From a virus, in the IMG/VR virus record IMGVR_UViG_3300038441_000602, positions 1-36,273 of that record: a stretch of 36,273 nt of DNA. The stretch is one strand, 5' to 3'. Shown one piece after another: positions 15,852 through 33,756 of this stretch. Under the pieces are notes generated by a model. That model was not told where the DNA came from, searched no databases, and worked only from the letters and a program-made list of their open reading frames with translations. Position numbers and translations under genes: made by a program. Every line of letters begins with the position of its first letter. Within the stretch, counting starts at the first letter, position 1.

Positions 15852-15865
15852 TATTCACTTGAATA
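15852..15865. promoter_or_regulatory. Operator-type palindrome site 1 (TATTCACTTGAATA)
   Basis: Leftmost member of the 13-site family, in the divergent region, 260 bases from the HNH start. It is the only site close to the leftward operon. Confidence 0.75.
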
Positions 15866-15873
15866 GCGCTCAA

Positions 15874-15950
15874 GGGCTTCACAGGAGCTGTCAGAACTGC
15901 CCGTGGTGCCCTGGACTACCCCCTCGTGGTGATCTTGGCTCCTCGTGAGA
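15874..15950. repeat. 75-base hairpin element, full copy 2
   Basis: Bases 15874-15888 (GGGCTTCACAGGAGC) exactly match 4494-4508, and the far arm GGCTCCTCGTGAGA matches GGCTCCTGTGAGA of copy 1. When copy 1 is reversed, the inner sequence also aligns (AACTGYCCG, then GATCTTGGCTCCT at 15931-15943). It starts eight bases after operator-type site 1. Confidence 0.75.
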
Positions 15951-16084
15951 CCACTAACCCTGGAACAGGCCACCTGAAAGTTGCCAAACCTCGCGGAACT
16001 CCGGCCGTGTTCGTCGAGCTTCGATTGACATATCGATGGGGGGCATACCCCCGTCCTTACCTGTATCAATGCGTACATGCAGTG

Positions 16085-16330
16085 CATCCCTTATATATGT
16101 CCAATGTACCCACACACATAGACACACATGCACACCCATGCACACACGCATGTGTTGGTACGTAAGGGAAGTAGCACGCACACACCATACACTGATCTAT
16201 GTATCACTGCACTGGGCTCGTGTGTGCCATGCTCGTACTCATAGGTGGGTGTCGTGGTAGCACACTGTTCTATTGAACACTGTATGTGTAGCACATCCTT
16301 ACATACCAACGGTTGTAGAGACATACATAC
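16085..16330. repeat. CA/TG-rich low-complexity tract
   Basis: Many short alternating purine-pyrimidine runs (CACACACAT, ACACATGCACACCC, CACACGCATGTG, ACATACATACACAC). No gene is credible. Such tracts are unusual in this otherwise balanced sequence and can adopt left-handed DNA or mark a replication or packaging region. Confidence 0.6.
16266..16279. repeat. TGTTCTATTGAACA palindrome, copy 2
   Basis: Exact duplicate of 15661-15674, within the CA/TG-rich tract. A one-armed remnant (ATTGAACAGTG) lies near 16583. Confidence 0.6.
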
Positions 16331-16673
16331 ACACCACTAAGCATGATCGTAACTGTATGTAATACGTATCTCACACATCATCCGTTCGTATGAGGTACAC
16401 CATCACCCTAACGGGTGAATATCACCTGTTCAGCCAAGTATTTTCGCCTCTCGTACCCACCCATATAGATGATCTTATGAGTTAGTCCCATTGGGTGGTA
16501 CATATAGACGAGCGTATGGGAGGGGCTACATCCTAGCTATACTTGGATAGTTGCTATTGTGCCATCCATACTCTTAGACCCATTGAACAGTGAGACGCAC
16601 TAGCAATCCCTACCATTGGCAGGGCATGTGGGAATCCCTTATGTAGCAACGGTTTCCTAGGTACGTGTCGGGG

Positions 16674-16687
16674 TTGCTAATCAGCCC
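16674..16687 (+). promoter_or_regulatory. TTGCTARTNNGYC element 2
   Basis: TTGCTAATCAGCCC on the plus strand, 240 bases before the tRNA-like structure and 400 before the first rightward gene. It shares its first 14 bases with the element at 18268. It may start the first rightward transcript. Confidence 0.45.
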
Positions 16688-16913
16688 TCCATGCCCCATG
16701 CTTGTCATGCACCTGTTGCGACGGCCCCACCAGGGTCAAGCGGTAGCGGGATGCGCTCGATTCTTGACTTCGCCTCACCGAGGCCACATAGCTAGGCAAG
16801 CGATAGGGACGCCGACGCGCGTCTCTGGGTAGCTCACGCTCCGTCCGGGGTGACAGGCACTCAGGGGCTTATGCGAGCGCAGGGTAAGCGTCCCGAAAGG
16901 CGAGCCAGCGTGA

Positions 16914-16992
16914 CGGATGGCCGTATGTACGGGTCCCTAGCCCGTGGGCGGTAGACAGACAAATCTAGCGGGTTCGATCCCTGCCCATCCGA
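16914..16992 (+). tRNA. tRNA-like element with degenerate core
   Basis: Acceptor CGGATGG/CCATCCG pairs perfectly over seven bases, and the T arm GCGGG-TTCGATC-CCTGC is normal, followed by discriminator A. The 47 bases between them do not fold canonically. An anticodon-like arm ACGGG-TCCCTAG-CCCGT is perfect but has only eight bases before it, so no D arm fits, and a short TAGA/TCTA hairpin precedes the T arm. The loop would give CCT (Arg) with C at position 33. It lies outside the tRNA array and on the other strand. It may be a decayed tRNA, a tRNA mimic or part of a longer structured RNA. Confidence 0.5.
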
Positions 16993-17005
16993 CGATTCAT
17001 GATCG

Positions 17006-17020
17006 TATTCAAGGTGAATA
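17006..17020. promoter_or_regulatory. Operator-type palindrome site 2 (TATTCA-AGG-TGAATA)
   Basis: Same half-sites as the family but with a three-base centre, the only site with altered spacing. It lies 60 bases before the helix-turn-helix gene. Confidence 0.65.
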
Positions 17021-17037
17021 CGGCACATGGGTCCGGT

Positions 17038-17051
17038 TATTCAAGTGAATA
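17038..17051. promoter_or_regulatory. Operator-type palindrome site 3 (TATTCAAGTGAATA)
   Basis: Consensus site 29 bases before the ATG of the helix-turn-helix gene, 18 bases after site 2. Paired sites at this position suggest autoregulation of the first early gene. Confidence 0.8.
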
Positions 17052-17080
17052 GCCGAATCTAGCCCTAGGGAGGCAGCACC

Positions 17081-17761
17081 ATGGCAACAAAGAACGTAAC
17101 CGCGATCAAAACGGCCGATCTCACCTGGCTCCGCAAGTACGCTGCTCAGGCCGAAACGGACGGCAGTAAGGCCAGCGAGATCCTTCTACAGGTCAAGGGC
17201 AAGGATGAACTTGCCGCACTGGTCGACACTCTCTCTCCGCTCAAACTCGGTCGGATCATGCCGCGTCACGCGGTCTGGACCGTTACTCAGGCATGGCGGG
17301 CAGCGAAGATTGACCAGACCGTCATTGCGACGGCGCTAGGCATCAGTCAGCCGACCGTGTCTCGCCTTGAGAAGGAGAGCGAGCCAGACACCGAGAGCGA
17401 GACACCGACCGGTGCGGGCGGCGCGCGGAACAAGCGTACCGATGACGAACGGCTCCGTGATCTGGCGGAGTCCATCGGCAAGTTGATCGAATCGTTCCCG
17501 CCTGCCAAGTGGGATCAGGAGACTGTCCAGGCAGTCAACAATGCGCGGATCAAGATGGCTCACGCGATCGAACCTCCGGCCAAGTTGAAAGCCATCACTG
17601 CCAGCGAGGGTACTTCCGGCACGTCCACCACGGTCACGGGTCCGGACAAGCCTGCCAGCAAGCCTCGCACGCCGCGCGCTACCAGCAAGGACAAGTCTGG
17701 CGAGTCCGACCAGACACGGGCAGCGCGTGAGGCAGTGCAGGAAATGCAGATCGCTGCTTGA
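17081..17761 (+). CDS. Helix-turn-helix DNA-binding protein
   Basis: First gene of the right arm, 226 residues, ATG behind GGGAGG. Residues about 75-102 (AWRAAKIDQTVIATALGISQPTVSRLEKE) form a clear helix-turn-helix with the usual G-I-S-Q-x-T-V-S-R recognition helix. The N-terminal part is helical. The region after residue 100 is polar, and the last 70 residues are Ser/Thr/Lys/Pro-rich and probably disordered. Two palindromic sites lie directly upstream, making it a candidate for the protein that binds the dispersed site family. A ParB-like or replication role cannot be excluded. A hairpin (17775-17800) follows the stop. Confidence 0.75.
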   Translation: MATKNVTAIKTADLTWLRKYAAQAETDGSKASEILLQVKGKDELAALVDTLSPLKLGRIMPRHAVWTVTQAWRAAKIDQTVIATALGISQPTVSRLEKESEPDTESETPTGAGGARNKRTDDERLRDLAESIGKLIESFPPAKWDQETVQAVNNARIKMAHAIEPPAKLKAITASEGTSGTSTTVTGPDKPASKPRTPRATSKDKSGESDQTRAAREAVQEMQIAA

Positions 17762-17774
17762 TCGCTCACTAGTC

Positions 17775-17800
17775 AGGCACGGGCGTAACAGTCCGTGCCT
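17775..17800 (+). terminator. Hairpin after the helix-turn-helix gene
   Basis: AGGCACGG pairs with CCGTGCCT across a ten-base loop, 14 bases after the stop. There is no T tract, so it may only stabilise or attenuate the transcript. Confidence 0.5.
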
Positions 17801-17834
17801 AGGCTATGTCCGATCAATCAAGGGAAGGTTAAGC

Positions 17835-18071
17835 ATGTTGTATGCATCGCCACCTATCCGACTAGCAGAATGCAAACGGGTTATTGACGGACTAACCCAT
17901 ACGGGAGGGTCCTTCCCTCGCCTCACCCTGCTAGCGATCATGTCCGACGCACAATTGCGATTCGTGGCGCGCCGTTCATCGCTAGGCAAGACCCTGCCGA
18001 CGGCGTCATGGTTCGACGCGCCACGGTCCGACCTTATGCGATGGCTCATTGAGTCCGCGCGGTTCGACTAG
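17835..18071 (+). CDS. Small protein of unknown function
   Basis: A 78-residue protein starting at ATG 17835 with GGGAAGG nine bases upstream. The frame is open further upstream, but that part overlaps the terminator and has no signal. The sequence is mixed basic (MLYASPPIRLAECKRVIDGL) with no recognisable motif. It is the first gene after the helix-turn-helix hairpin. Confidence 0.55.
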   Translation: MLYASPPIRLAECKRVIDGLTHTGGSFPRLTLLAIMSDAQLRFVARRSSLGKTLPTASWFDAPRSDLMRWLIESARFD

Positions 18072-18110
18072 GCACTACGACCGGTCGGATCGATCATGGT
18101 CCGACCGGTC

Positions 18111-18124
18111 TATTCATATGAATA
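18111..18124. promoter_or_regulatory. Operator-type palindrome site 4 (TATTCATATGAATA)
   Basis: Lies between two small genes, 24 bases before the ATG of a tiny membrane protein, just upstream of its AGGAGG. This copy is a perfect palindrome over all 14 bases. Confidence 0.8.
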
Positions 18125-18147
18125 CCCACCATCAGGAGGTAACAATC

Positions 18148-18261
18148 ATGTCCACTGTCAAGCGTGCTCTCATCACCGGTTCATCGTTCCTCGCCATGAT
18201 CGGCATTCTCATGGCCGCTGTCATCGGCGTTGCCGTAGGGGGTGTCTCTGTTCTTTCTTAG
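18148..18261 (+). CDS. Tiny membrane protein (37 aa)
   Basis: ATG 18148 follows AGGAGGT at an ideal distance. Residues 9-34 (ITGSSFLAMIGILMAAVIGV) form one strong transmembrane helix after a short basic start (MSTVKRA). No family is recognised. It is one of several single-span miniproteins in this arm. Confidence 0.7.
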   Translation: MSTVKRALITGSSFLAMIGILMAAVIGVAVGGVSVLS

Positions 18262-18267
18262 TCCAAC

Positions 18268-18281
18268 TTGCTAATCAGCCC
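18268..18281 (+). promoter_or_regulatory. TTGCTARTNNGYC element 3
   Basis: TTGCTAATCAGCCC, 30 bases before the ATG at 18311, in the gap after the membrane protein gene. A likely extended -10 promoter. Confidence 0.5.
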
Positions 18282-18310
18282 GTTCTACCAATCCCAGTTA
18301 GGAGATCACC

Positions 18311-18760
18311 ATGTCGTCTTGGCTCTCTCTTGAGCTGCACCTCAAGCACGCCACCCGCAAGCTCGGTCCCCTGGTCCTGAAGGACCCCAAGAGCAAGGAG
18401 ACCCCCAACATCCGGCCGCTCACGTTCCGCGTATCCGAGGTCTGCCACGTTGGCTACAGCGGGACTGGTAAGCGCGGGCTGACCCTGCATGGTGCCGTGA
18501 ACGTGCGTGACTTCGGAGCATCCCAGTTCCCGCGGGTGACTTTGGTCCAGAAGAACGCGGCCAAGATGCGCTCGATGGTCAAGCCTGCGGCTGACGCTGT
18601 GGCTGACTGGGAGGCTGGTGCGCTGGCAGCTATCCAGGCTGAGTTCACAGCAGATCAGCTCGACTCCATGACCGAGCTGGAGTACCGGACGCGCGAGTGG
18701 CACGAGGACATCGAGCCCTGGGAAGAGGCTGCGCTGATGCTCCAGGGGGTCAAGCGCTGA
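18311..18760 (+). CDS. Hypothetical protein (149 aa)
   Basis: ATG behind TAGGAG. Basic N-terminal half (LHLKHATRKLGPLVLKDPKSK), then a beta-like central part (FRVSEVCHVGYSGTGKRGLTLHG) and an acidic helical C-terminus (FTADQLDSMTELEYRTREWHEDIEPWEEA). No known family recognised. The stop overlaps the next ATG (TGATG), so the two are co-translated. Confidence 0.7.
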   Translation: MSSWLSLELHLKHATRKLGPLVLKDPKSKETPNIRPLTFRVSEVCHVGYSGTGKRGLTLHGAVNVRDFGASQFPRVTLVQKNAAKMRSMVKPAADAVADWEAGALAAIQAEFTADQLDSMTELEYRTREWHEDIEPWEEAALMLQGVKR

Positions 18761-19032
18761 TGCAACCCATTAAGCCGCTGAAGATCCAGTGCGAGACCTC
18801 GTACCGCGGGCTGACACCCAGCGATCTCGCACGCATTGAGATCGAGTTTCCTGGCAACAACTTCAAGCGGGCCTGGGTCAATCCACGCCTGCACAGCCGG
18901 GAATCCATGCACAGAGAGGCCATTCTCGATGCCATCGGGACGGGCTTCAAGCTGCGCATCATCGAGGAAACCCTAAGTGGCTACGTCTGGGAAATCAGCG
19001 TGCCACGAGACAACCGCTATTCAAGTGAATAG
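18760..19032 (+). CDS. Hypothetical protein (90 aa)
   Basis: ATG overlaps the previous stop. Mixed alpha/beta composition (IEIEFPGNNFKRAWVNPRLH). The last codons and TAG stop lie inside palindromic site 5 (CTATTCAAGTGAATAG), so the protein ends YSSE. Function unknown. Confidence 0.7.
   Translation: MQPIKPLKIQCETSYRGLTPSDLARIEIEFPGNNFKRAWVNPRLHSRESMHREAILDAIGTGFKLRIIEETLSGYVWEISVPRDNRYSSE
19018..19031. promoter_or_regulatory. Operator-type palindrome site 5 (TATTCAAGTGAATA)
   Basis: Overlaps the stop codon of the upstream gene and directly abuts GGAGG of the next gene. Binding here would block readthrough or the ribosome site in RNA terms. Confidence 0.85.
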
Positions 19033-19042
19033 GAGGTGTTTG

Positions 19043-19273
19043 GTGCGAATCATTGACTGGTACGGGGGAAAGGCGATCATCACGCAAGACCAGCAGTCCC
19101 GTCCCGTGCGTATCGAGTTCGATTACGGGATCGAGGATGGGCAGGTCTGGGTCTATGTCTATCGAGGCACCTGGCACAGGGAAGGACTCGGGCCAACATG
19201 GGCTCCGGTCCGGCGCATTCCCATGGGCAACTACCGCGCGACCGCTATTCAAGTGAATAGGAGCAGTGAATGA
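19043..19273 (+). CDS. Hypothetical protein (76 aa)
   Basis: Start at GTG 19043, eight bases after GGAGG. An upstream reading start at 18977 would overlap the previous gene and was rejected. Beta-rich (VRIIDWYGGKAIITQ, RIEFDYGIEDGQVWVYVY). Site 6 encodes its AIQVN near the C-terminus. Stop overlaps the next ATG (ATGA). Unknown function. Confidence 0.7.
   Translation: MRIIDWYGGKAIITQDQQSRPVRIEFDYGIEDGQVWVYVYRGTWHREGLGPTWAPVRRIPMGNYRATAIQVNRSSE
19246..19259. promoter_or_regulatory. Operator-type palindrome site 6 (TATTCAAGTGAATA)
   Basis: Inside the last codons of the 76-residue protein gene, 11 bases before the next start, adjacent to GGAG of that gene. Confidence 0.85.
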
Positions 19274-19497
19274 AGCTCAAGTGCAAGAGCCATGACAGCC
19301 GAGTCATGGTCCTGGACGACCACCAGGTGCTCCATCGGTCCAAAGGGGACGAGTGCGCTGATGCCGTGCTCACCATCGGTGGGCAAGACCTCCCCGTCGT
19401 AGCTGTCGCCCTAATCGGTGTCGGCCTGATGGAGCGCGAGAACAAGCGGGGCACGGACCCCGCACGGGAACTACTCAAGGAGGTTTTCGGTGGGTAA
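19270..19497 (+). CDS. Hypothetical protein (75 aa)
   Basis: ATG overlaps the previous TGA. Compact alpha/beta sequence (VMVLDDHQVLHRSKGDECADAV) with a nonpolar centre (LPVVAVALIGVGLMERENK). The next gene starts inside its end. No family recognised. Confidence 0.65.
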   Translation: MKLKCKSHDSRVMVLDDHQVLHRSKGDECADAVLTIGGQDLPVVAVALIGVGLMERENKRGTDPARELLKEVFGG

Positions 19498-19672
19498 GAG
19501 CAGCGGGCTCCGCAACAAGAGCCGGCCCAACGGCAAGAGCACCTACACCCGCAAGGGCAAGGGCAACAAGCGCGACACGTACGGCAGTTGGGAGAACGGC
19601 AAGCAGGTACGCCCGGACAACATCGCGGGCCGAATCCTGGACATCTACAAGGAGCGGGAGCGAGCGCGATGA
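19490..19672 (+). CDS. Small highly basic protein (60 aa)
   Basis: GTG start at 19490 behind AAGGAGG. About a third of residues are Lys or Arg in the first half (GKSSGLRNKSRPNGKS), which suggests nucleic-acid or ribosome contact. The C-terminus is helical. Stop overlaps the next ATG. Confidence 0.65.
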   Translation: MGKSSGLRNKSRPNGKSTYTRKGKGNKRDTYGSWENGKQVRPDNIAGRILDIYKERERAR

Positions 19673-20001
19673 TGAACGCGGTAGAGATCCTGACTGCGGG
19701 TCGGGACAAGATCCAGGGAAACGGGTGGTACCGGGGTGACAGCGCTGGACTTCAGCGCGACAAGGTGATTGGTCCAGCGAAGGACAGGTATTCCTGCGAT
19801 TGCCTCGCTACGTCGGTTCACCACAACCCCAAGGTGCTCCGGTACATCCTGGCCGCGCTGGACCTGCCCTACGATCCCGACTCCCCCGACTGGCGGCCGG
19901 TCTACAAGGCCAACGACGCTCAGTCCATCGAGGACGGTCCGAAGTGGGCCATCGGTGTCCTGGACAAGGCGATCGAGCTGGCGAAGGCCGACGTGACATG
20001 A
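19669..20001 (+). CDS. DUF6197-like small phage protein
   Basis: A 110-residue protein with ATGATG start overlapping the previous stop. The pattern AVEILTAGRDKIQGNGWYRGD ... YSCDCLATSVHH, with paired Cys near residue 43, resembles the small DUF6197 family seen in actinobacteria and their phages. Its role is unknown. The similarity is weak and based on pattern only. Confidence 0.55.
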   Translation: MMNAVEILTAGRDKIQGNGWYRGDSAGLQRDKVIGPAKDRYSCDCLATSVHHNPKVLRYILAALDLPYDPDSPDWRPVYKANDAQSIEDGPKWAIGVLDKAIELAKADVT

Positions 20002-20378
20002 ACTACGAAGCCATGCAGCTATGGATCGATGGGCTCCGTTCGGATGAGTTCAAGCAGGGCGTGGGGAAGCTACTTCAGGTCGAGGATGGCGCGGCTAAGT
20101 ATTGCTGCCTCGGCGTGGCGTGTGTGCTTGCCAAGCGTGCTGGCGTGATCGAGACCCTTCCATGGGAACGCGCAGGCAGGGGATTCGAGGTTGCCGTGCT
20201 TCCGCCTGATGTGTCGGACTGGCTCGGTACCTCCGAATGGGACACCAACAACCGGAAGAACCCCATGGTCAAGGGCATTTCCCTGGCTGGCCACAACGAT
20301 GCTGGAGCCACGTTCCGGGAGATCGCTGACATGTTGGAGCAGGTCGTAGCCGACCACAAGGAGCGTGCTCATGTTTGA
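19998..20378 (+). CDS. Hypothetical phage protein with CCLGV motif
   Basis: A 126-residue protein, ATGA overlap with the preceding gene. The order KYCCLGVACVLAK, then FEVAVLPPDVSDWLG, then NDAGATFREIADMLE is a pattern found in many phage hypothetical proteins of this size. Its partner gene upstream has a related layout. Function unknown. The gene shares its last bases with the start of the dprA-like gene. Confidence 0.65.
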   Translation: MNYEAMQLWIDGLRSDEFKQGVGKLLQVEDGAAKYCCLGVACVLAKRAGVIETLPWERAGRGFEVAVLPPDVSDWLGTSEWDTNNRKNPMVKGISLAGHNDAGATFREIADMLEQVVADHKERAHV

Positions 20379-21063
20379 GCCACGGATCATCGATCCCAAT
20401 TCAAGTGAATGGCCGTGGGTGTTCCGTGACCTGCCCGCGGACTACACACCAGAACGACTCTGGGTGCGCGGAGACGGGAACCTTGAGGAGTTCACCAACA
20501 CGGCCATCTCCATCATCGGGGCTCGTGCCAGTACGGCGTACGGGGATCACACTGCCAGTGACATTGCCAACGGACTCGCCACGAACGGCTGGACGGTTGT
20601 CTCTGGTGGTGCTCTCGGAATCGACGGTGCTGCCCATCGTGGTGCCCTTGCGGCTGACTCCATGCGCTTCCCTGGCACAAAGGGACGCACGATCGCGGTC
20701 CTCGCGTCCGGTGTGGACGTGTTCTATCCAGCCGCGCACCACTTCCTGTTCGAGCACATCCTGCGTAACGGTGGGCTGATCGTGTCCGAGTATCCGCCCG
20801 GATCTCACCCGCACCGTTCACGTTTTCTCGAGCGCAACCGGCTGATTGCTGCCATGAGTGGCGGGATGGTCATGGTTGAGGCTGGGCAGAACAGTGGATC
20901 GACGGCTGCCTTTGGGCATGCTCGCACGCTGAAGCGGAAGCTCATGGTGGTGCCTGGTCCGGTCACGTCTGCCTACAGCAAGGGCACTAACTACCAGCTC
21001 AGGTTCGCTGATGTGTCACCGGTCGGTACGGCCGCTGAAGTGGAAGAGGTGATGAACGCATGA
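20371..21063 (+). CDS. DprA-like Rossmann-fold protein
   Basis: A 230-residue protein. I chose ATG 20371, with GGAG ten bases upstream. It carries the DprA/Smf core in order: SIIGARAST, VVSGGALGIDGAAHRGAL, VLASGVDVFYPAAHHFLF, GGLIVSEYPPG, FLERNRLIAAMS, VMVEAGQNSGSTAAFGHA and VVPGPV. Cellular DprA protects single-stranded DNA and loads RecA. The N-terminal SAM and C-terminal winged-helix regions of long DprA are missing here, leaving the core. Phage DprA-like proteins may act in recombination of incoming DNA or in defence contact. Site 7 lies within codons 10-13. Confidence 0.85.
   Translation: MFEPRIIDPNSSEWPWVFRDLPADYTPERLWVRGDGNLEEFTNTAISIIGARASTAYGDHTASDIANGLATNGWTVVSGGALGIDGAAHRGALAADSMRFPGTKGRTIAVLASGVDVFYPAAHHFLFEHILRNGGLIVSEYPPGSHPHRSRFLERNRLIAAMSGGMVMVEAGQNSGSTAAFGHARTLKRKLMVVPGPVTSAYSKGTNYQLRFADVSPVGTAAEVEEVMNA
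20398..20411. promoter_or_regulatory. Operator-type palindrome site 7 (AATTCAAGTGAATG)
   Basis: Core ATTCAAGTGAAT intact but outer pair A/G instead of T/A. Within the first codons of the dprA-like gene. Confidence 0.65.
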
Positions 21064-21140
21064 AGCTGCTCAAGGAGATCGGGTCCTGGGTTGCGATCGG
21101 CGTGATCTGGGGCCTGGGCATCTGGATCGCGGTGAGCTGA
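21060..21140 (+). CDS. Tiny membrane protein (26 aa)
   Basis: MKLLKEIGSWVAIGVIWGLG then IWIAVS, with ATG overlapping the dprA-like TGA. One transmembrane helix, basic N-terminus inside. Too short for function prediction. Confidence 0.6.
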   Translation: MKLLKEIGSWVAIGVIWGLGIWIAVS

Positions 21141-21141
21141 C

Positions 21142-21675
21142 ATGACCGCGGTTATTCAAGTGAATACGTATCCACTGTCCGACATCGTGATCGGCTCTCT
21201 GAACGACAGCGACCTGGTGACCTGCGGGACGTGCGGCAAGAAGTTCCCCGACATCTACCCGTCTGCCCGCTGTCCGTACGAGTACGAGCACCCTCGCAAG
21301 TGGCCAACGGATGAGGCTGGCTGCCTGATCGGTGGACACCATGGCTGGCATGGGCACGCCTACATGATTGACCTGGCCGTGCAGTCGGGTTACCCGATGA
21401 CCGAGAAGGACACGCGCGCCCTGGATATCTACCGGGGCAACGCATCGCACGACGCTGCATCACAGCACATGCTCGACCAGGGCGGCTTGATGGACAAGGC
21501 CGAAGAGTGGATGAACAAGCACTGTGCTCCGGAGGGCTACAGCTTCGGGTGGCATGAGGGTGAGTTCTTCCTCGCGCACAACTACTGGTGGTACCCGGAA
21601 GCCGATGGCAACGACGGCAGGGACTGCCAGGGCAAGGACATCCACTACGACATCCACGGAGCCCAGGAGGTGTAG
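21142..21675 (+). CDS. Hypothetical protein with N-terminal CxxC
   Basis: A 177-residue protein starting one base after the previous stop. Near residue 28 it has TCGTCGKKFPDIYPSARCP, a C-x2-C with a later Cys that could form a zinc knuckle. The rest is rich in His, Trp and Tyr (HHGWHGHAY, NYWWYPEADG). Site 8 covers codons 4-8 (VIQVN). Not recognised. Confidence 0.65.
   Translation: MTAVIQVNTYPLSDIVIGSLNDSDLVTCGTCGKKFPDIYPSARCPYEYEHPRKWPTDEAGCLIGGHHGWHGHAYMIDLAVQSGYPMTEKDTRALDIYRGNASHDAASQHMLDQGGLMDKAEEWMNKHCAPEGYSFGWHEGEFFLAHNYWWYPEADGNDGRDCQGKDIHYDIHGAQEV
21153..21166. promoter_or_regulatory. Operator-type palindrome site 8 (TATTCAAGTGAATA)
   Basis: Within the first codons of the 177-residue protein gene. 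Encodes IQVN in the same frame as site 6, showing the sequence is conserved across different contexts. Confidence 0.8.
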
Positions 21676-21678
21676 CCC

Positions 21679-22256: not shown

Positions 22257-22270
22257 TTGCTAATGAGTCC
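22257..22270 (+). promoter_or_regulatory. TTGCTARTNNGYC element 4
   Basis: TTGCTAATGAGTCC directly followed by palindromic site 9, and 29 bases before the ATG at 22299. The overlap (the palindrome begins where the element ends) suggests a promoter controlled by the site. Confidence 0.6.
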
Positions 22271-22283
22271 ATTCATATGAATA
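22270..22283. promoter_or_regulatory. Operator-type palindrome site 9 (CATTCATATGAATA)
   Basis: Immediately downstream of TTGCTARTNNGYC element 4 and upstream of GGGAGG. A bound protein would cover the transcription start of that promoter. Confidence 0.8.
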
Positions 22284-22298: not shown

Positions 22299-22886
22299 AT
22301 GAGTGACGAACAGATCGGCGAGTACGAGTTCAAAGAGGGCACGCTGTACGTGAAGACGCATCGGTCGAAGCTGTCCGTTGAGGGACCGTGGAATGAGCGG
22401 AGGGTTGACGCTACTGCGGTCCTGCACGTGTCCAGCAGTCCTGCGTTCAAGTGGTTGGAGGCGGACGGAGCCCTGGTCATTCGTGGGCGCAAGTACCGCG
22501 TCCACACGGGACGGATCAGGACCACGGAGGAGTACACCAAACGATCCGGCCTTACCACTCAGTGGAGGGCTGACGGCAACCTGTCCTTCCGCGAGTTCCT
22601 CAACGACAACGGCGTGCCCGTGACCTGGGACACCGCAACGTATACGCGGCTCGACGCCATGGTGTCCGAGGCATGCGACAAGTACGTGGCCGACTTCCCT
22701 GGTTGGGAGGAGCACTGCCTGCGCCTGGCCATCGACTCGGAGGTCGACCGGAACGAGGGCAAGATCCGAGAGCTGCGCGAGGAGCTGGACAAGTACACGG
22801 GCAGGCGAGACAGGTTCGCGGCCCTGCTGGAACTCAGGCAGCCCAATGCCGGGCACATCAGCATCAACGACCTGGACGGGCGGTAG
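22299..22886 (+). CDS. Hypothetical protein with C-terminal coiled coil (195 aa)
   Basis: Starts at ATG after GGGAGGTGC. The N-terminal half is beta-rich (EFKEGTLYVKTHRSKLSVEG; HVSSSPAFKWLEADGALVI). From about residue 148 an acidic/basic helix runs (EVDRNEGKIRELREELDKYTG). Possibly nucleic-acid or partner binding. Not recognised. It heads a new operon after element 4 and site 9. Confidence 0.65.
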   Translation: MSDEQIGEYEFKEGTLYVKTHRSKLSVEGPWNERRVDATAVLHVSSSPAFKWLEADGALVIRGRKYRVHTGRIRTTEEYTKRSGLTTQWRADGNLSFREFLNDNGVPVTWDTATYTRLDAMVSEACDKYVADFPGWEEHCLRLAIDSEVDRNEGKIRELREELDKYTGRRDRFAALLELRQPNAGHISINDLDGR

Positions 22887-24763: not shown

Positions 24764-25710
24764 GAGCGGTATGGAAAGGTGTCATCTCCTTCGGACTGGC
24801 GAACATCGCGGTCAGGCTGTACTCAGCCACGGAGGACAAGGACATCCGATTCAAGTCAGTGCATGTCGGCTGTGGTGGTGGGATCAAGATGCCACGGATG
24901 TGCACGAAGTGCGGTGAACAGGGTCTCGCGTCCAGTGCCATCGGCAAGGGCTACGAGACGGGAGACGGCCTGGTCCTGCTCGATGAATCCGATCTGGCTG
25001 ACCTGCCGCTGAGCACCAGCCGGCGCATTGAGATCGAGCAGTTCGTTACGGACGTCGATCCGATCTATCACGAGAAGATGTACTACCTGGAGCCGGACGG
25101 TCCGGAGATGATCCAGGCATACGAGCTGCTCGCGCATGGACTGAAGGGGACTCGCCGGATCGGCATAGGGAAGGCGGCGCTACGACAGCGAGAGCGCATG
25201 GTCGCGCTGAGTGTCCTGGATGGGAACGTCATCCGCCTGACCACACTGCGCTGGCCTGACGAGGTGCGTGTTCCTGAGTTCATGCACATGCCTACGGGCG
25301 AAAGCACCACAACGGCCGGGTACCTGATGGCGTGCGAGATCATCAAGTCCATGGCCGTCGATGAGCTGGACCTGACCCAGTATTCAGATGAATACCGCAA
25401 CGCCCTGGAACGGGTCATCGAGGCGAAGGTGGCCGGACAGTCCTCGCCGGCGATCGAGTCTAAGCCACAGTCCAACGTGGTCGACCTCATGGCAGCACTC
25501 AGAGCGTCCGTCGAGAAGGCCCGGGCGGACAGGCAGGCCAGGGAGGCTGCCACAGAACAGGCGATTCCCGCTCTAGTGGGCTCGCGTAGAGCCACGAAAA
25601 CGACGAGGACGGGTCAGGGCAAGGGTACGGAAAAGATCTTGGCTCCTGTAAAGGTTGCCTCATCCACATCACGGGCGACACGTACGCCCAAAGTTGCTAG
25701 TCAGTCCTAA
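24760..25710 (+). CDS. ku: Ku protein (DNA end-binding, NHEJ)
   Basis: A 316-residue homologue of bacterial Ku. The opening MRAVWKGVISFGLANIAVRLYSATEDKDIRFKSVH is diagnostic, as are LLDESDLADLP, YYLEPDG and AYELLAHGLKGTRRIGIGK. The N-terminal domain has a CxxC-type element (RMCTKCGEQG) not usual in Ku, perhaps a small zinc insert. The C-terminal tail after residue 230 is basic and Ser/Thr-rich. Bacterial Ku bridges DNA ends and recruits LigD. In mycobacteriophages Omega and Corndog a phage Ku helps circularise genomes with short cohesive ends. A partial 75-base element lies in codons near the end, and site 10 lies in the middle. Confidence 0.93.
   Translation: MRAVWKGVISFGLANIAVRLYSATEDKDIRFKSVHVGCGGGIKMPRMCTKCGEQGLASSAIGKGYETGDGLVLLDESDLADLPLSTSRRIEIEQFVTDVDPIYHEKMYYLEPDGPEMIQAYELLAHGLKGTRRIGIGKAALRQRERMVALSVLDGNVIRLTTLRWPDEVRVPEFMHMPTGESTTTAGYLMACEIIKSMAVDELDLTQYSDEYRNALERVIEAKVAGQSSPAIESKPQSNVVDLMAALRASVEKARADRQAREAATEQAIPALVGSRRATKTTRTGQGKGTEKILAPVKVASSTSRATRTPKVASQS
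25381..25394. promoter_or_regulatory. Operator-type palindrome site 10 (TATTCAGATGAATA)
   Basis: Deep inside the Ku gene, about 620 bases from its start. A full 14-base match to the half-sites here argues against a role limited to promoters. Confidence 0.75.
25623..25651. repeat. 75-base hairpin element, partial copy inside ku
   Basis: Bases 25629-25649 are the exact reverse complement of 4501-4521, and 25623-25640 the exact reverse complement of 35066-35083. The stretch is in frame and encodes GTEKILAPVK near the Ku C-terminus. Confidence 0.75.
25694..25707 (+). promoter_or_regulatory. TTGCTARTNNGYC element 5
   Basis: TTGCTAGTCAGTCC across the end of the Ku gene, 18 bases before the GTG of the DUF932 gene. 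Confidence 0.5.
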
Positions 25711-27729: not shown

Positions 27730-27732
27730 GTA

Positions 27733-28540: not shown

Positions 28541-28542
28541 CA

Positions 28543-28806
28543 GTGACGAACGTCAATATACGGCTGGAACCCACTGCGCTAGAACTGGCGGTTGAGCGGA
28601 TCGTTGAGAACGTCGAGAACTTCAGCGACGTTGACAACGCCGAACAGAAGCAGTGGCTGATCGACCAGATCATGCGCGACCTGCTCGGTGAGGGGTACGA
28701 GAAGTGGCGGGACGCATTCAACGCGGAGTCCGAGCAGCTCGGGGTCGGCCCCTGGAGTGAAGGGGTCATGCCCGGAGATCCCATCACGCAGGCGGCATTC
28801 AAGTGA
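28543..28806 (+). CDS. Hypothetical acidic protein (87 aa)
   Basis: GTG 28543 behind GGAGG. Acidic helical (VERIVENVENFSDVDNAEQK). Its stop TGA lies inside palindromic site 11 and overlaps the next GTG. Unknown. Confidence 0.6.
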   Translation: MTNVNIRLEPTALELAVERIVENVENFSDVDNAEQKQWLIDQIMRDLLGEGYEKWRDAFNAESEQLGVGPWSEGVMPGDPITQAAFK

Positions 28807-28809
28807 ATA
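28796..28809. promoter_or_regulatory. Operator-type palindrome site 11 (CATTCAAGTGAATA)
   Basis: Contains both the stop of the upstream gene (TGA 28804-28806) and the GTG start of the polynucleotide kinase gene (28803-28805). The site therefore sits exactly on a translational junction. Confidence 0.8.
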
Positions 28810-29747
28810 GGCTCATCGTCTACCGTGGACTGCCCGGAGCCGGGAAGACAACCCTGGCAAAGGCTGTCGTGGCTGAGGACCCGCGGCGCTGGGCACGGGT
28901 GAACCGGGATGACCTGCGTGCCATGGCTCACGACGGTATTCACTTGAATCAGACGGGCACCGAGGACGGTACCGAGCGGGCGATCATTGCCATACGGGAT
29001 GCTGCAATCTCAGCTCTGCTCAAGCGTGGCATGAACGTCATCAACGACGACACGAACCTGCCAGCCAGGACGGTTCGGGACCTGCGTCGACTGGCCACAT
29101 TGCACGGTGCTGAGTTCGAGGTGGTGGACCTGACCGGAGAGTCCGTGGACGTTTGCGTGGCTCGCGACAAGGCCAGGATCAAACCGGTCGGGGAGAACGT
29201 CATCCGTGACTACCACAAGCGGTACATCAAGGGGCAGCCCTGGCCGCTACCCATCCCGGACGAACCTGTCGATGACCAGTGGGTGATCGAGCCGTACAAG
29301 CCAACGGGCGTGGGTCCGAAGACCTGGATCGTGGACATCGACGGAACCGTTGCCCTGATGGGTACCCGTTCGCCGTTCGATGAGTCACGAGTCTGCGAGG
29401 ATCAGCCGCACGTGCCTGTCGTCTCAGCCGTCCACGCACTGTGGATGCAGGGATACGAAATCATCTTCCTGTCCGGACGGAAGGATTCCTGTCGAGACGC
29501 GACCGATGCTTGGCTTCGCAGGCACTTCCCGGCCATGACCTACAACAGTGGACTGAGACTGTTCATGCGTCCAGCAACGGGACCGCTCGCTGGCGAGACG
29601 GACTGGAAGGTGAAGCTCACACTGTTCAACGAACATGTTCGGCACAACTACGACGTGGCCGGCGTGCTCGATGACCGCAATCAGGTAGTCGACATGTGGC
29701 GGAAGCTGGGCCTGACCTGCTTCCAGGTAGCGGATGGCAACTTCTAG
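28803..29747 (+). CDS. Polynucleotide kinase/phosphatase
   Basis: A 314-residue protein with two domains. The kinase half has Walker A GLPGAGKTT (residues 9-17) and lid-region Arg residues. The phosphatase half has the HAD signature DIDGT at residues 178-182, a following Ser/Lys region and a DDRNQVV box near the C-terminus. This is the T4 Pnk layout (kinase then 3'-phosphatase). It can restore 5'-phosphate and 3'-hydroxyl ends of cleaved DNA or RNA, for example tRNAs cut by host defence nucleases. No phage ligase is in the window. The host would have to supply the ligase, possibly LigD together with Ku. Site 12 lies in codons 45-50. Confidence 0.88.
   Translation: MNRLIVYRGLPGAGKTTLAKAVVAEDPRRWARVNRDDLRAMAHDGIHLNQTGTEDGTERAIIAIRDAAISALLKRGMNVINDDTNLPARTVRDLRRLATLHGAEFEVVDLTGESVDVCVARDKARIKPVGENVIRDYHKRYIKGQPWPLPIPDEPVDDQWVIEPYKPTGVGPKTWIVDIDGTVALMGTRSPFDESRVCEDQPHVPVVSAVHALWMQGYEIIFLSGRKDSCRDATDAWLRRHFPAMTYNSGLRLFMRPATGPLAGETDWKVKLTLFNEHVRHNYDVAGVLDDRNQVVDMWRKLGLTCFQVADGNF
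28937..28950. promoter_or_regulatory. Operator-type palindrome site 12 (TATTCACTTGAATC)
   Basis: Within the kinase gene, 127 bases after site 11 and in the opposite sense of its asymmetric centre. Last base differs from consensus. Confidence 0.65.
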
Positions 29748-29753
29748 GTCATC

Positions 29754-29767
29754 TTGCTAGTATGTCC
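29754..29767 (+). promoter_or_regulatory. TTGCTARTNNGYC element 7
   Basis: TTGCTAGTATGTCC begins six bases after the stop of the kinase gene and 138 bases before the next start (29906). Here TAGTAT would be a good -10 element. Confidence 0.5.
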
Positions 29768-29905
29768 AGGACGGTCCGGCGATGCGTCAACGTCACCGAT
29801 GCCATGCGGATCGATGGTGGGGAGAGACAAGCAACCTCCCGTCTCACAGATCCACCAGCGCTGACCCGGACCGCCTACAACTTCACAACAACTGAAGGGA
29901 ACCAA

Positions 29906-30145
29906 GTGAACGGCCCCCCAGAGTTTGAACTGATGCCCCTGACTGAAGGCGTGAGCGCACGGATCAAGCTCACCCACGCAAGGGCATGCACGTCACTGTC
30001 CGACGAGGCCGCGACGGAGCGCATGAACACGGAGAACCCGACTGGGATCGAGTCCTGGTGGGAGATCTGCGCGAGCGAAGCACTAGCTCCGGTCGCCTGC
30101 CAGGAACGACCCGACACGCATCGGCACCTGATCTTCGAGTGCTGA
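29906..30145 (+). CDS. Hypothetical protein (79 aa)
   Basis: Start set at GTG 29906 with GAAGGGA before it. The frame is open upstream to 29762, but that would place the start within a promoter-like element. Mixed composition with two Cys in the centre (TGIESWWEICASEALAPVAC). Unknown. Confidence 0.5.
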   Translation: MNGPPEFELMPLTEGVSARIKLTHARACTSLSDEAATERMNTENPTGIESWWEICASEALAPVACQERPDTHRHLIFEC

Positions 30146-30148
30146 CCA

Positions 30149-30535
30149 ATGCACAGGGAAGATCGACCATTCCCCTGCAAGGGGAAGCACGCGCTGTTCT
30201 TCAGTGAGCGAAGCATTGACGAACGCAGAGCTGTTGCCCTGTGTAAACCCTGCCCGGAACGGGTCGCGTGCCTGACCGGTGCGAGGGAGCGGCAGGAACC
30301 GTACGGGACGTGGGGTGCGGAGACGAAGAGGCAGCGATTCCGGGCGATCAACGGTCGAACGATCCGGAAGGCTGCTGTCGACACCGTGAACCCCACCACT
30401 CCTGCGATCAAGGCTGACATCGTGAGGCTCAACGAGCAGGGCATGTCCCGTCTTGCGATCAGCCAGGAACTGAACATCACCAAGGATCAAGTGATCGGCG
30501 TGCTGCGGCGGATGAGAGGAAAGACAGATGGGTAA
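30149..30535 (+). CDS. WhiB-family regulator with C-terminal HTH
   Basis: A 128-residue protein. Cys10, Cys32, Cys35 and Cys41 give C-x21-C-x2-C-x5-C, the iron-sulfur ligands of WhiB proteins, and GTWGAE (53-58) is the conserved turn. WhiB proteins modulate the main sigma factor; phage TM4 carries a WhiB that acts as a dominant inhibitor. The C-terminal part (about 86-125, ADIVRLNEQGMSRLAISQELNITKDQVIGV) adds a helix-turn-helix not usual in small phage WhiB proteins. It starts three bases after the previous stop with a poor ribosome site. Confidence 0.88.
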   Translation: MHREDRPFPCKGKHALFFSERSIDERRAVALCKPCPERVACLTGARERQEPYGTWGAETKRQRFRAINGRTIRKAAVDTVNPTTPAIKADIVRLNEQGMSRLAISQELNITKDQVIGVLRRMRGKTDG

Positions 30536-30731
30536 GTATCAATCGAAGACGTGGGTGCAGGACCACATGGCTGATCGGACCAGCGAGCCGCCAGACACGT
30601 GGGAGTTCGGCATCGGGTACGCCTTCAAGGGCTGCACCTGGGTTGTCCTACACCGGGCGGACATGCCACACACGACGCTCGTGGTCACAGCGTCCGACCT
30701 GAAGGACGACTTCCTGGAGGTGGCAGCATGA
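30528..30731 (+). CDS. Hypothetical protein (67 aa)
   Basis: ATG inside the end of the WhiB gene with GAGGAAAGACAG before it. Compact beta-rich sequence (WEFGIGYAFKGCTWVVLHRAD). Unknown. Stop overlaps the next ATG. Confidence 0.6.
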   Translation: MGKYQSKTWVQDHMADRTSEPPDTWEFGIGYAFKGCTWVVLHRADMPHTTLVVTASDLKDDFLEVAA

Positions 30732-31477
30732 CCGTCACTGCATACACCACAAAGGACTCTGGCAAGCGTCAGCAGTACGCCAACGGGATGAAGCGGGACA
30801 CGAACGAGGGCAAGCCGCGGTTCAACCTGATGGTTCCGAAGGAGGTCCCGTACAACGAGCAGATCTTGACGCGCGTTGCCGAGCTGCTCGCCCGTGGTGC
30901 CGTCAAGTACGGAGACCGGAACTGGGAGTCTGGATGGGACCCGGAAGCCTTGGAGCGCGCGTACGACAGCGCCATGCGTCACCTCATGCAGTGGATGTGC
31001 GGGGAGACCGACGAGGACCATGCTGCTGCGGTCGTGTTCAACATCATGCAGGTTGAGTACCTGGAGTACATGCGGCCGAAGCCGTCCCGATGGGAACAGG
31101 TAGTGGCGGCACCGACCAGGAAGGACCGGGAGCACTGGGTCGAGGCAACTGAGATCCCTGCGGACGGCCAGTCCAGGAAGGACCGCATCGAGGCGCTGAA
31201 GAAGAAGCGGGCAGAGCGGCAGGCCAAGGCCAAGGACGAACCGAAGGAACCGGTGGCCAACACGGCCGAGCTGAAGCCACCACCGGAACGGGTTCCGACC
31301 CTGTCCTACGCCGAACTGATGAAGCTGCGGTGCGGGTCCATTGTGGAGTCCACCGAGACTGGCCGGAGGTTCATCAAGGAGGAGGGCACGATGGTTTGGC
31401 TCGGACTAGAGGGACTCGGAAGGTTCAGCAACGCCGGCCTCATCGCCATGTTCGGCAGCAAGCTCAAGGAACTGTGA
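30728..31477 (+). CDS. DUF5664 dATP/dGTP pyrophosphohydrolase (MazG/MazZ-like) with extra tail
   Basis: A 249-residue protein from ATG 30728. The N-terminal 110 residues have the DUF5664 pattern: NEGKPRFNLM, then LLARGAVKYGDRNWESG, then AYDSAMRHLMQWMCGETDEDHAAAVVFNIM. The E/D-rich DED-H metal site is visible. Such enzymes split dATP or dGTP, or other nucleotides, to monophosphates. MazZ is the relative in phages with 2-aminoadenine DNA, but no purZ-like gene is in this window. The remaining 130 residues are basic, then globular, and may be a separate domain. Confidence 0.8.
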   Translation: MTVTAYTTKDSGKRQQYANGMKRDTNEGKPRFNLMVPKEVPYNEQILTRVAELLARGAVKYGDRNWESGWDPEALERAYDSAMRHLMQWMCGETDEDHAAAVVFNIMQVEYLEYMRPKPSRWEQVVAAPTRKDREHWVEATEIPADGQSRKDRIEALKKKRAERQAKAKDEPKEPVANTAELKPPPERVPTLSYAELMKLRCGSIVESTETGRRFIKEEGTMVWLGLEGLGRFSNAGLIAMFGSKLKEL

Positions 31478-31488
31478 GGAGAGACGGA

Positions 31489-32274
31489 ATGACAACGGTC
31501 AAGAAGTACGAAGAGATCGTGGCGGACGGCAAGGCTGCGATCGACACTGCGGTTCAGGAAGCATACGCACGCGGCCGAGAGTCGGGGGTGAATCAGTATG
31601 CCCACGTTCATGCAGCCATGGCACAACTTGCTAATCTGTCCGGCCGTCCTTCTGGGTTTTCATTCCTGTCCAGGAGTGGCGTGGCAGACATCGTTGCTCG
31701 GATCAAGGCACGGTTCGAGCAGTACCCACCGATCCATGTCACTGCCAATGCGGAAGAGATCGCAACGCTGAAGGACCGCAACGCACGTCAGGCCATGTGT
31801 ATCTCTGCGGTCACTGATGCGATCGGCCTGCCCATCGGACAGCTCGACCTGAACACTCTCGGAAAGGAGGTGAAGGACCGGCTCGCGGAGAAGGACAAGG
31901 AGATTGCCAGGCTGACGGAGAAGAACCAGAACCAGCAGAGATTCCTGCGAGAGATCGCCAAGGCTGTCGGCATGGACCCCCTCCTCTCCGTGGAGCTGAA
32001 CAACCTCGTTCACCGGGTCTCGGCGGTGGCCGAGTCGGAGCGAGACCTGATCGAGCGGAACGAGAAGCTGACCCTGAAGGTAGGCAAACTCAGGCGCGAA
32101 CAGGTGGACGAGTTCCATCGTGGACTCCAGCAAGGGGTCCAGCGGGGACGGGAAGAGGAGCGTGCAGAGATCCTGGCTGCGGCTGCCCGTGAGCGACTGA
32201 AGATTTTGCACGCCACAATCCAGGACAGTGACCGCGAGCGCTCCATCACCTTCGAGCTGTGCGGGCAGCACTGA
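31489..32274 (+). CDS. Coiled-coil protein (261 aa)
   Basis: ATG 31489 behind GGAGAGACG; an earlier frame start overlaps the previous gene. Residues about 133-250 contain repeated charged heptads (DRLAEKDKEIARLTEKNQ; ERDLIERNEKLTLKVGKLRR). The N-terminal part is less regular and TTGCTARTNNGYC element 8 lies in it. Likely a structural or partner-binding protein. No specific family. Confidence 0.65.
   Translation: MTTVKKYEEIVADGKAAIDTAVQEAYARGRESGVNQYAHVHAAMAQLANLSGRPSGFSFLSRSGVADIVARIKARFEQYPPIHVTANAEEIATLKDRNARQAMCISAVTDAIGLPIGQLDLNTLGKEVKDRLAEKDKEIARLTEKNQNQQRFLREIAKAVGMDPLLSVELNNLVHRVSAVAESERDLIERNEKLTLKVGKLRREQVDEFHRGLQQGVQRGREEERAEILAAAARERLKILHATIQDSDRERSITFELCGQH
31628..31641 (+). promoter_or_regulatory. 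TTGCTARTNNGYC element 8
   Basis: TTGCTAATCTGTCC within the coiled-coil gene, about 140 bases from its start. The only internal member. It may drive the downstream phosphatase and lsr2 genes, or may be chance conservation. Confidence 0.4.
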
Positions 32275-32275
32275 C

Positions 32276-32776
32276 ATGCCGTACTACGTTCCCGCCGCCC
32301 GTGACGAGTGGAATGAGATCGTCCCGAACCTGTTCATGGGTGGCCATGTCTACGACCCGATGCAGAAGTTCTCGAGCCCATGGCTGCCAGTCGTGGTGCG
32401 TGACGAGTTCGATTCGGTCGTGTCCCTATACACAGAGTCTGGCTCTGGTCCGAGCGTAGGCGTTCCGCACGTCATATGCGAGATTCCTGACGACAAAGAG
32501 AACGGACTGAATGACGGCGGACTGTTCATGGTCGAGCTGATTGCCGACCTGGTGGCAGATGCCGTGAAGTCCGGGAAGAAAGTCCTCGTCCGTTGCCAAG
32601 CTGGATACAACCGTTCCGGCCTGGTCGTGGCGTTCGCGCTCATGCGGATGGGCTACACGGGTCCGCAGGCTATCCAGCTCATTCGGCAGAAGCGTTCACC
32701 GCACGCACTGTGCAACGAACGCTTTGTCGAGTACATCCAGAACCACAAGCCCGTCCTGGAGGAGAGCAATGCCTAG
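32276..32776 (+). CDS. Dual-specificity protein phosphatase-like
   Basis: A 166-residue protein. VRCQAGYNRSG holds the C-x5-R active-site loop (Cys107, Arg113, then Ser). IPDDKENG at about 70-77 supplies the general acid Asp. Fold order, a beta strand before VPHVICEIPDD then the loop and an alpha helix, is that of dual-specificity phosphatases. Phage versions could dephosphorylate host proteins, or RNA ends, to reprogramme the cell. Start is ATG 32276, one base after the previous stop. Confidence 0.85.
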   Translation: MPYYVPAARDEWNEIVPNLFMGGHVYDPMQKFSSPWLPVVVRDEFDSVVSLYTESGSGPSVGVPHVICEIPDDKENGLNDGGLFMVELIADLVADAVKSGKKVLVRCQAGYNRSGLVVAFALMRMGYTGPQAIQLIRQKRSPHALCNERFVEYIQNHKPVLEESNA

Positions 32777-32861
32777 AACCAGGATCGGATGGACGATATT
32801 CCTATTGGCCTCATTGCTGGGCGTGGCGGGACTGGTGGTCCGAGTTGCAGGGGTGGCGTGA
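32769..32861 (+). CDS. Tiny membrane protein (30 aa)
   Basis: MPRTRIGWTIFLLASLLGVA then GLVVRVAGVA. Basic start and one transmembrane helix. ATG lies inside the end of the phosphatase gene. Confidence 0.6.
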   Translation: MPRTRIGWTIFLLASLLGVAGLVVRVAGVA

Positions 32862-33019
32862 TGGAGCTGGCTGGCCTGAGGTTCATGCTGTGGTGCATTG
32901 ACGTCTCCGATCGAGTCCGTTGGCTCTGGACCGACATCCGCGGCGACAAGGTCGGATGGAACTGCTCCACCGGAGAATGGTTGGCTGCACCGAGAAAGAG
33001 CCTCGGAAGTAGCAAGTAA
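32861..33019 (+). CDS. Small Trp-rich protein (52 aa)
   Basis: ATG overlaps the previous TGA. Four Trp residues in mixed context (WCIDVSDRVRWLWTDIRGDK). Basic end. Unknown. Confidence 0.6.
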   Translation: MELAGLRFMLWCIDVSDRVRWLWTDIRGDKVGWNCSTGEWLAAPRKSLGSSK

Positions 33020-33276
33020 TGGTCGCCGCTGACCCAGCAACAAGAAGTCTGGTCGCACGTATCGCAGCCAATACAAGAGTGGCACACACCACCGACCGCA
33101 AGGCGATGACCGCACCAGCGAGACGGGCATGGAATGCCAGGTGGGAAAAGGAAGTAGACCCGACCGGATCGTTAGATCCAAATGAAAGGGCGATACGCGC
33201 CAAGGCAGCCCTGAAGGCACACATGCAGGGGCTGTCGCTAAGATCATCCCAAACCAGGAAGAGGAGAAAGAAGTAA
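33019..33276 (+). CDS. Small basic protein (85 aa)
   Basis: ATG overlaps the previous TAA (TAATG). Ala/Arg-rich helical sequence with a strongly basic end (RSSQTRKRRKK). Stop shares a base with the Lsr2 start. Nucleic-acid binding is possible, but no family is recognised. Confidence 0.6.
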   Translation: MVAADPATRSLVARIAANTRVAHTTDRKAMTAPARRAWNARWEKEVDPTGSLDPNERAIRAKAALKAHMQGLSLRSSQTRKRRKK

Positions 33277-33737
33277 TGGCAACGCAGAGCATCGTCGTCG
33301 CTTACTGCGACATCACTGGCGAGACCGAGAACGTCGAGACCGTCCTCTTCGGACTGGACGGCGTGCTGTACGAGATCGACCTCGTCGGGAAGCTGGCCGA
33401 CAAGCTGCGTGACGGCTTGGGCGAGTTCATCCCGAACGCACGTCGGGTCACCGCGAAGCGGGGCGCCGGTCGCAAGGCCATGGCGGACCCAGAGCTGAAC
33501 AAGCGGATTCGGGAGTGGGCACCTGGAGCTGGCTGGGAGGTCAGCGAGCGCGGTCGCATCAAGTCCGAGATCATCGACGCCTACCACGCGAACCGCTCGA
33601 ACCCGGACGCAGTGCAGCCAGAACCGGTCAAGGCCAAGTCCACCAGGGCCAAGGCTGAGCCGCCTGCTGCTGCGTTCTCCAACCCGGAGACCCCGGACGA
33701 GACTCCGAAGAAGCGGACTCGGGCCAAGGCTGAGTAG
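33276..33737 (+). CDS. Lsr2-like nucleoid protein
   Basis: A 153-residue homologue of Lsr2. The N-terminal dimerisation domain, DITGETENVETVLFGLDGVLYEIDL, and the C-terminal DNA-binding part, IREWAPGAGWEVSERGRIKSEIIDAYH, are both clear. The Lys/Pro/Ala-rich end (KAKSTRAKAEPPAAA, then TPKKRTRAKAE) is a phage-specific extension. Lsr2 silences AT-rich DNA in actinobacteria. A phage copy could counteract host silencing or package phage DNA. Site 13 and a strong terminator follow. Confidence 0.88.
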   Translation: MATQSIVVAYCDITGETENVETVLFGLDGVLYEIDLVGKLADKLRDGLGEFIPNARRVTAKRGAGRKAMADPELNKRIREWAPGAGWEVSERGRIKSEIIDAYHANRSNPDAVQPEPVKAKSTRAKAEPPAAAFSNPETPDETPKKRTRAKAE

Positions 33738-33742
33738 CAAGC

Positions 33743-33756
33743 TATTCACATGAATA
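33743..33756. promoter_or_regulatory. Operator-type palindrome site 13 (TATTCACATGAATA)
   Basis: Rightmost site, between the lsr2 stop and the terminator. None follows in the GntR/integrase region. Confidence 0.8.

Follow-up and report, generated by a model that had tools for sequence, protein, structure and literature searches.

The linear IMG/VR virus record IMGVR_UViG_3300038441_000602, which is the whole window analysed here (36,273 bases, 60.5% guanine plus cytosine (GC)), shows 13 copies of a short palindrome of the type TATTCA-N2-TGAATA along its early genes and their control region. The first 15.6 kb contain leftward structural genes, such as those encoding terminase, portal and capsid, and a tRNA array; they are followed by a control region of around 1.5 kb and by rightward genes spanning 17.08-33.74 kb. 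We take these rightward genes to form one operon; their products include a DprA-like protein, Ku, a polynucleotide kinase, WhiB and Lsr2. To the right of this early block, a gene encoding a GntR/UTRA regulator and then a gene encoding a tyrosine integrase are adjacent at 34.3-36.1 kb. The terminase is 59-62% identical to terminases of Streptomyces phages of the Arquatrovirinae and, because of this kinship and the gene content of the block, WhiB and Lsr2 included, the host is probably actinobacterial. The gene model covers the rightward arm, and its gene starts are our own choices (36 open reading frames (ORFs)).

The full TATTCA-N2-TGAATA pattern is present at eight sites, starting at 15852, 17038, 18111, 19018, 19246, 21153, 25381 and 33743. 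One site (17006) has a three-base centre, and four (20398, 22270, 28796 and 28937) show changes in the outer bases only. The sequence-only reading, made earlier from the letters alone, had given these 13 starts and this division, and every coordinate proved exact. The inner arms ATTCA/TGAAT are invariant in 13 of 13 sites while the centre varies, and the window holds no ATTCA-N(0 to 7)-TGAAT beyond the 13. Site 15852..15865 (centre CT) lies on the leftward side of the divergent control region, where it is overlapped by a leftward ORF of 122 amino acids (15719-16087) that has no PHROG match and is doubtful as a real gene. Sites 17006..17020 (centre AGG, with arms reaching 8 bp, CGTATTCA/TGAATACG) and 17038..17051 (centre AG) are directly upstream of a gene encoding a helix-turn-helix (HTH) protein, and their centres are 31.5 bp apart, about three helical turns. 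Site 18111..18124 (TA) has its centre 30 bp ahead of the start of an ORF of 37 amino acids of our own calling (18148-18261). The last two bases of site 19018..19031 (AG) form, with base 19032, a stop codon TAG, which is directly followed by the Shine-Dalgarno sequence of the next gene, and site 19246..19259 (AG) occupies the last codons of a gene and adjoins the next Shine-Dalgarno sequence. Site 20398..20411, with both outer bases changed, is near the 5' end of the DprA-like gene; site 21153..21166 (AG) covers codons 4-9 of the gene at 21142; and site 22270..22283 (TA, one outer change) has its centre 22 bp ahead of the start at 22299. Site 25381..25394 (GA) is deep within ku. Site 28796..28809 (AG, one outer change) contains both the stop codon that ends one gene and the GTG with which the polynucleotide kinase gene starts, and site 28937..28950 (CT, one outer change) is within the kinase gene. 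Finally, site 33743..33756 (CA) is between the stop codon of lsr2, the last gene of the block (33276..33737, plus strand; its Lsr2 and Lsr2_DNA-bd matches exceed the Pfam cut-off), and a strong terminator-like hairpin with a T run (33754..33804, plus strand; fold of -41.3 kcal/mol, z -7.36). The stem of this hairpin, as folded, starts within the last bases of the site; the hairpin was not listed by a simple pattern scan.

All 13 sites are contained between 15.85 and 33.76 kb, and uniform placement would bring them all into 15.6-33.8 kb with a chance of about 1.3e-4. They span the rightward early block from its head to the terminator, plus the one site in the divergent control region. The array had been described as restricted to the early arm; confinement to the early genes and their control region stands, but site 15852 lies on the leftward side and thus outside the rightward arm. 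The centre is at most 40 bp from a start codon in eight of the 12 right-arm sites, where 17.4% were expected (p 2e-4); with limits of 30 and 50 bp the counts are 5/12 (p 0.014) and 8/12 (p 0.001), respectively. Also as first described, some sites fall on stop/start junctions or at Shine-Dalgarno sequences (19018, 19246 and 28796) and others are well inside ku and the kinase gene (25381 and 28937).

The array is real and non-random. Allowing three mismatches or fewer, the two-base-centre pattern, which does not detect site 17006, matches the window 15 times versus a mean of 3.35 in shuffled sequences, and none of 100 shuffles reaches 15; 12 of the matches are array sites and the other three are at 15661, 16266 and 21938. 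An open scan for dyads ranks ATTCA-N2-TGAAT first at arm length 5, with 12 copies (three or fewer of any dyad in 20 shuffles), and the motif again ranks first at arm length 6, with eight copies (two or fewer in shuffles); at arm length 7 it merely ties with another dyad at two copies. The array also withstands the codon-shuffling control proposed with the sequence-only reading, which had judged chance recurrence negligible: when the block genes were recoded synonymously with their own codons 500 times, 477 runs produced no coding site and the other 23 a single one, versus seven observed. The coding sites contain many minority codons (TAT 0.14, TCA 0.10, CAA 0.12 and TTG 0.05 of the codons for their amino acids), together with common ones (TTC 0.94, AAG 0.92 and CAC 0.79). 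Since recoding rarely yields sites and minority codons are many, selection seems to have acted on the sites as DNA sequence, over and above what they encode.

Arrays of this kind are present in two groups of actinobacteriophages. In Cluster O mycobacteriophages, the Corndog group, the excerpted account describes a 17-bp dyad, TGTTCGG-NNN-CCGAACA, in more than 30 copies, located in intergenic gaps, close to the 5' ends of genes and within genes, for which its authors propose a dimeric protein and state that the function is unknown (PMC4351075). In Cluster EG Microbacterium phages (Hyperion, Squash and OneinaGillian), the corresponding excerpts describe an 18-bp repeat, GATCAACC-NN-GGTTGATC, in 8-10 copies, typically 14-22 bp upstream of starts, and report that no repressor or integrase was identified (PMC7302621). 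The same dyad scan recovers the arrays of Mori (Cluster O, 38 copies) and Casend (Cluster EG, 12 copies) at arm length 6; Mori contains 36 copies of the Cluster O dyad and Casend 12 sites with two mismatches or fewer. Under the 40-bp rule with annotated starts, 10 of 11 Casend sites (p 2e-6) and six of 10 Mori sites (p 0.03) are near starts, the counts covering 11 of the 12 Casend sites (31-48 left out) and 10 of the 36 in Mori. The window array shares with Cluster EG the dyad, the variable two-base centre, a copy number of about ten and a position at the right end near starts, whereas the EG arms are different and longer, and the window has two sites deep in genes and one three-base centre. 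With Cluster O it shares a dyad with a free centre, intergenic, 5'-proximal and intragenic sites, a greater density toward the right end and, in Mori, a gene encoding Ku; it differs in sequence, in spacing and in having fewer copies, while Cluster O also shows sites in the left part of the genome and Corndog lacks an integrase. As a multi-copy short inverted repeat with a variable centre, in the non-structural arm and near starts, the array is filed with the Cluster O and EG kind, with a repeat sequence different from both and from a genome that encodes an integrase as well. The sequence-only reading did not include this closer kind and had compared the layout to Cluster A stoperators, while noting that the window motif is symmetric. 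That comparison is sound as far as it goes: in the excerpts available for Clusters A and CA, stoperators are likewise scattered, intergenic or overlapping gene termini (PMC6550527, PMC13313380), and those of Cluster A are bound by a repressor (PMC6550527), but they are asymmetric, 13-14 bp long and mostly in one orientation, whereas the window motif has dyad arms in 13 of 13 sites and an unrelated sequence. In a PHROG scan covering 40 window proteins, none was labelled as a Cluster A-type immunity repressor. The start-associated sequences (SAS) of Cluster K, as excerpted, are also repeats linked to gene starts and occupy the non-structural half of the genome (PMC3203893); they are asymmetric 13-mers at translation starts, whereas the window motif is symmetric, few of its sites adjoin a Shine-Dalgarno sequence and four of the 12 right-arm sites are over 40 bp away from any start.

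Sites near ribosome binding sequences might act in the transcript, as hairpins recognised by a protein or an RNase. Some sites do adjoin Shine-Dalgarno sequences, Cluster K SAS offer a precedent, the stretch 17000-17080 folds well (z -3.1, one of 200 shuffles as good, with longer arms contributing) and AG is on the presumed sense strand in seven of the eight AG/CT-centred sites, a weak bias (two-sided p 0.07). However, the outer-base departures break the would-be RNA pair in four of four cases and none is compensated, hairpin folds at 19018, 19246 and 22270 do not clearly surpass those of shuffles (z -1.8, -1.6 and +0.4), and sites with TA, GA or CA centres and intragenic sites exist, so that such an RNA element seems improbable. 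On balance, the arms look as if read as double-stranded DNA by a dimer: their conservation as sequence rather than as RNA pairing points to a dimeric DNA-binding protein as the likely ligand.

The interpretation that we favour, with a confidence that is evenly balanced, is that the 13 palindromes are double-stranded DNA sites of one dimeric phage protein, likeliest the product of the gene at 17081, which would govern early expression. This gene (17081..17761, plus strand) is the first of the rightward early block, encodes a protein of 226 amino acids with a weak HTH_3 match and has sites 17006 and 17038 directly ahead of it. Each arm of 5-6 bp would be read by one subunit, leaving the two (once three) centre bases unread, and the HTH product would occupy both sites of the pair ahead of its gene, on the same face of the helix. 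As it accumulates it may shut its own early promoter and, bound at the other sites, it may let less RNA polymerase pass and perhaps restrict the access of ribosomes at gene starts, thereby acting as a governor of early expression. Several points weigh against this interpretation. The HTH_3 match (E 0.00047) is below the Pfam cut-off and the matches to PHROG regulators are weak, a single-sequence structure model of the protein is poor (predicted local distance difference test score 45.5), and no homologue was found in searches some of which reach close relatives only and one of which returned an uninformative empty answer. The 17081 protein has no detectable similarity to the head-region proteins compared in Mori and Casend, the motif is absent from the loci that hold distant relatives of early genes (Mori being outside that motif search), and there is no consensus sigma-70 promoter near the head sites (three in 15.6-35.2 kb, 4.5 expected). 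The 40-bp limit was picked after the sites were seen, sites 25381 and 28937 are deep in genes, and the nearest start is 68 bp from 17006 and 473 bp from 33743. In addition, the window is a fragment and the binder may lie outside it; since the true binder may thus be missing, the preference for the 17081 protein is itself only about even.

The GntR/UTRA regulator (34335..35060, plus strand), with Pfam GntR and UTRA above cut-off and related to NagR, YvoA and DasR, is the rival binder. It, or a protein encoded outside the window, could be the immunity repressor of a symmetric analogue of the stoperators, silencing the early genes of a prophage by binding at the promoter and downstream. The integrase and the regulator side by side, the intergenic or terminus-overlapping position that stoperators likewise show and the presence of one site on the leftward side agree with this alternative, which is possible although doubtful. 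There is, however, no array site within about 580 bp of the start of the regulator gene, which lies beyond the terminator. According to the excerpted structural account, NagR uses Arg38 and Arg48 to read two guanines (PMC4333415); the aligned positions of the window protein contain Ala and Thr and, because both base-reading arginines are replaced, its site cannot be guessed and the array motif is not predicted from it. Moreover, as the excerpts show, similar arrays occur in Cluster O, where Corndog lacks an integrase and no stable lysogens were reported, and in Cluster EG, where neither a repressor nor an integrase was identified, so lysogeny is not needed for them. Consequently, of the two binders proposed by the sequence-only reading, the HTH protein keeps its two sites just upstream, while the GntR protein is a weak candidate. 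A silencing or partition role had also been raised there. Sites that organise the phage DNA by partition, bridging or occlusion, scattered in the manner of ParB or KorB sites rather than serving transcription, would accommodate the two sites deep in genes and the Lsr2-like DNA bridger encoded by the block, and the inner TTCA-N2-TGAA resembles the core of bacterial parS. Lsr2 is not known to need a palindrome, no ParA/ParB-like family was named in the PHROG scan of the 40 window proteins (of a window that is a fragment), and the start bias and the confinement to one gene block are unexpected for partition, which leaves such a role with little likelihood. It is less probable still that the phage acquired the binding motif of a host regulator: in the 10 actinobacterial genomes scanned (around 77 Mb) the full pattern is present once, as is the backward control pattern.

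No relative carrying the motif, and no close relative, was found among the IMG/VR, GTDB and phage loci searched. The sequence ATTCANNTGAAT is absent from 11 complete named phage records with related proteins, and ATTCA-N2/3-TGAAT is absent from 112 terminase-related loci (1,669,869 bases), which were obtained with a terminase profile and consist of 80 kept of 132 in IMG/VR and 32 in GTDB. When IMG/VR was scanned for close matches to the HTH, Ku and terminase proteins, no motif-bearing relative emerged. A query with two copies of the window motif matched 18 phage records, in one place each. DNA-pattern scans of IMG/VR gave nine loci, with one site in eight and two in L011, then 40 loci (L014-L053), with six sites in two of them (L033 and L039), and further 25 loci with only two sites in all 25 and 31-44% GC. 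L039 (37% GC) shows no match in a tblastn search with 20 window proteins. L033 (65% GC) was rejected as a relative, as it shows no protein similarity to the window, its sites extend as AATTCA..TGAATT and its packaging families are others. In L033 (IMGVR_UViG_3300021446_000130, 250-4130) many GAATTCA half-sites and ATTCA-N2/3-TGAAT dyads are located in the gaps around the terminase gene; this GC-rich contig, apparently unrelated, is perhaps from another virus with a dyad array. When 20 window proteins were compared with 242 fetched loci (L005-L246; E up to 1e-4), 18 matches were found: eight with the 22299 protein, two with each of the DprA-like, 21142, 21679 and DUF932 proteins, one with each of Ku and Lsr2, and none with the rest. 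Distant relatives of the DprA-like protein are in Gordonia phage Bosnia, those of the 21142 and 21679 proteins in the Kribbella loci L178 and L193, those of the 22299 protein in eight loci, and that of Ku in Mori (30% identity). The check on relatives proposed by the sequence-only reading thus reached distant kin of a few early genes, in other phages, and gave no motif in the loci searched. At that distance the motif is not carried along with those early-gene families; close relatives are another matter. Dyad scans of the 11 named phages show no 6-base dyad with more than five copies. The largest 5-base dyad, GCCGG-N5-CCGGC (11 copies each in phiHau3 and GreenWeasel), is scattered and was read as GC-rich coding bias.

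The excerpted array accounts of Cluster O (2015) and Cluster EG (2020) name neither a function nor a ligand, no report of a ligand for them was found in the literature searched, to which subscription journals are mostly external, and a search with the motif letters gave only an unrelated microarray paper. A third such array, with a site pair directly before an HTH gene, provides a concrete and cheap candidate ligand, and it suggests where to look in two culturable groups. Confirmation of this candidate would put a name to an operon-wide mode of control shared by unrelated actinophages. In Casend, gp106 (231 amino acids) is encoded by the first gene of a leftward block at the right end, and 20 bp ahead of the start of that gene is a site with two mismatches; in Mori, gp127 (240 amino acids) is encoded at the right end in the opposite direction, with 145 bp between its start and the end of the nearest upstream site. 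Neither protein shows a clear domain, and their parallel with the 17081 protein in size and rough place is a lead and not a test. It is conceivable, although we consider it rather unlikely, that the unrelated lineages of Cluster O, Cluster EG and this virus converged on a single control design: a fast-evolving DNA-binding protein of around 230 residues, encoded by the head gene, with sites upstream of itself and at gene starts of the operon, tuning early expression after initiation in lytic and temperate phages alike, the site of each lineage serving as a private code.

Other features are located in and around the control region. The leftward arm contains nine tRNA genes on the minus strand in less than 1 kb (13116-14059), eight of which are listed by Rfam at its threshold. 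The stretch 16325-17000, about 0.7 kb with no convincing gene, separates the divergent gene blocks. It contains, at approximately 16914-16993 and just ahead of the head sites, a tRNA-like stretch in which ARAGORN finds a tRNA-Pro only at lowered thresholds and Rfam lists no tRNA; it could be a degenerate tRNA or the core of attP. A second palindrome, TGTTCTATTGAACA, has two exact copies in the divergent control region (15661-15674 and 16266-16279), differs from the array pattern by three mismatches and may be a related operator. Ahead of a leftward HNH gene, CCCCCTCCGGGGG is present in three exact copies (15593, 15638 and 15684) with a spacing of around 45 bp.

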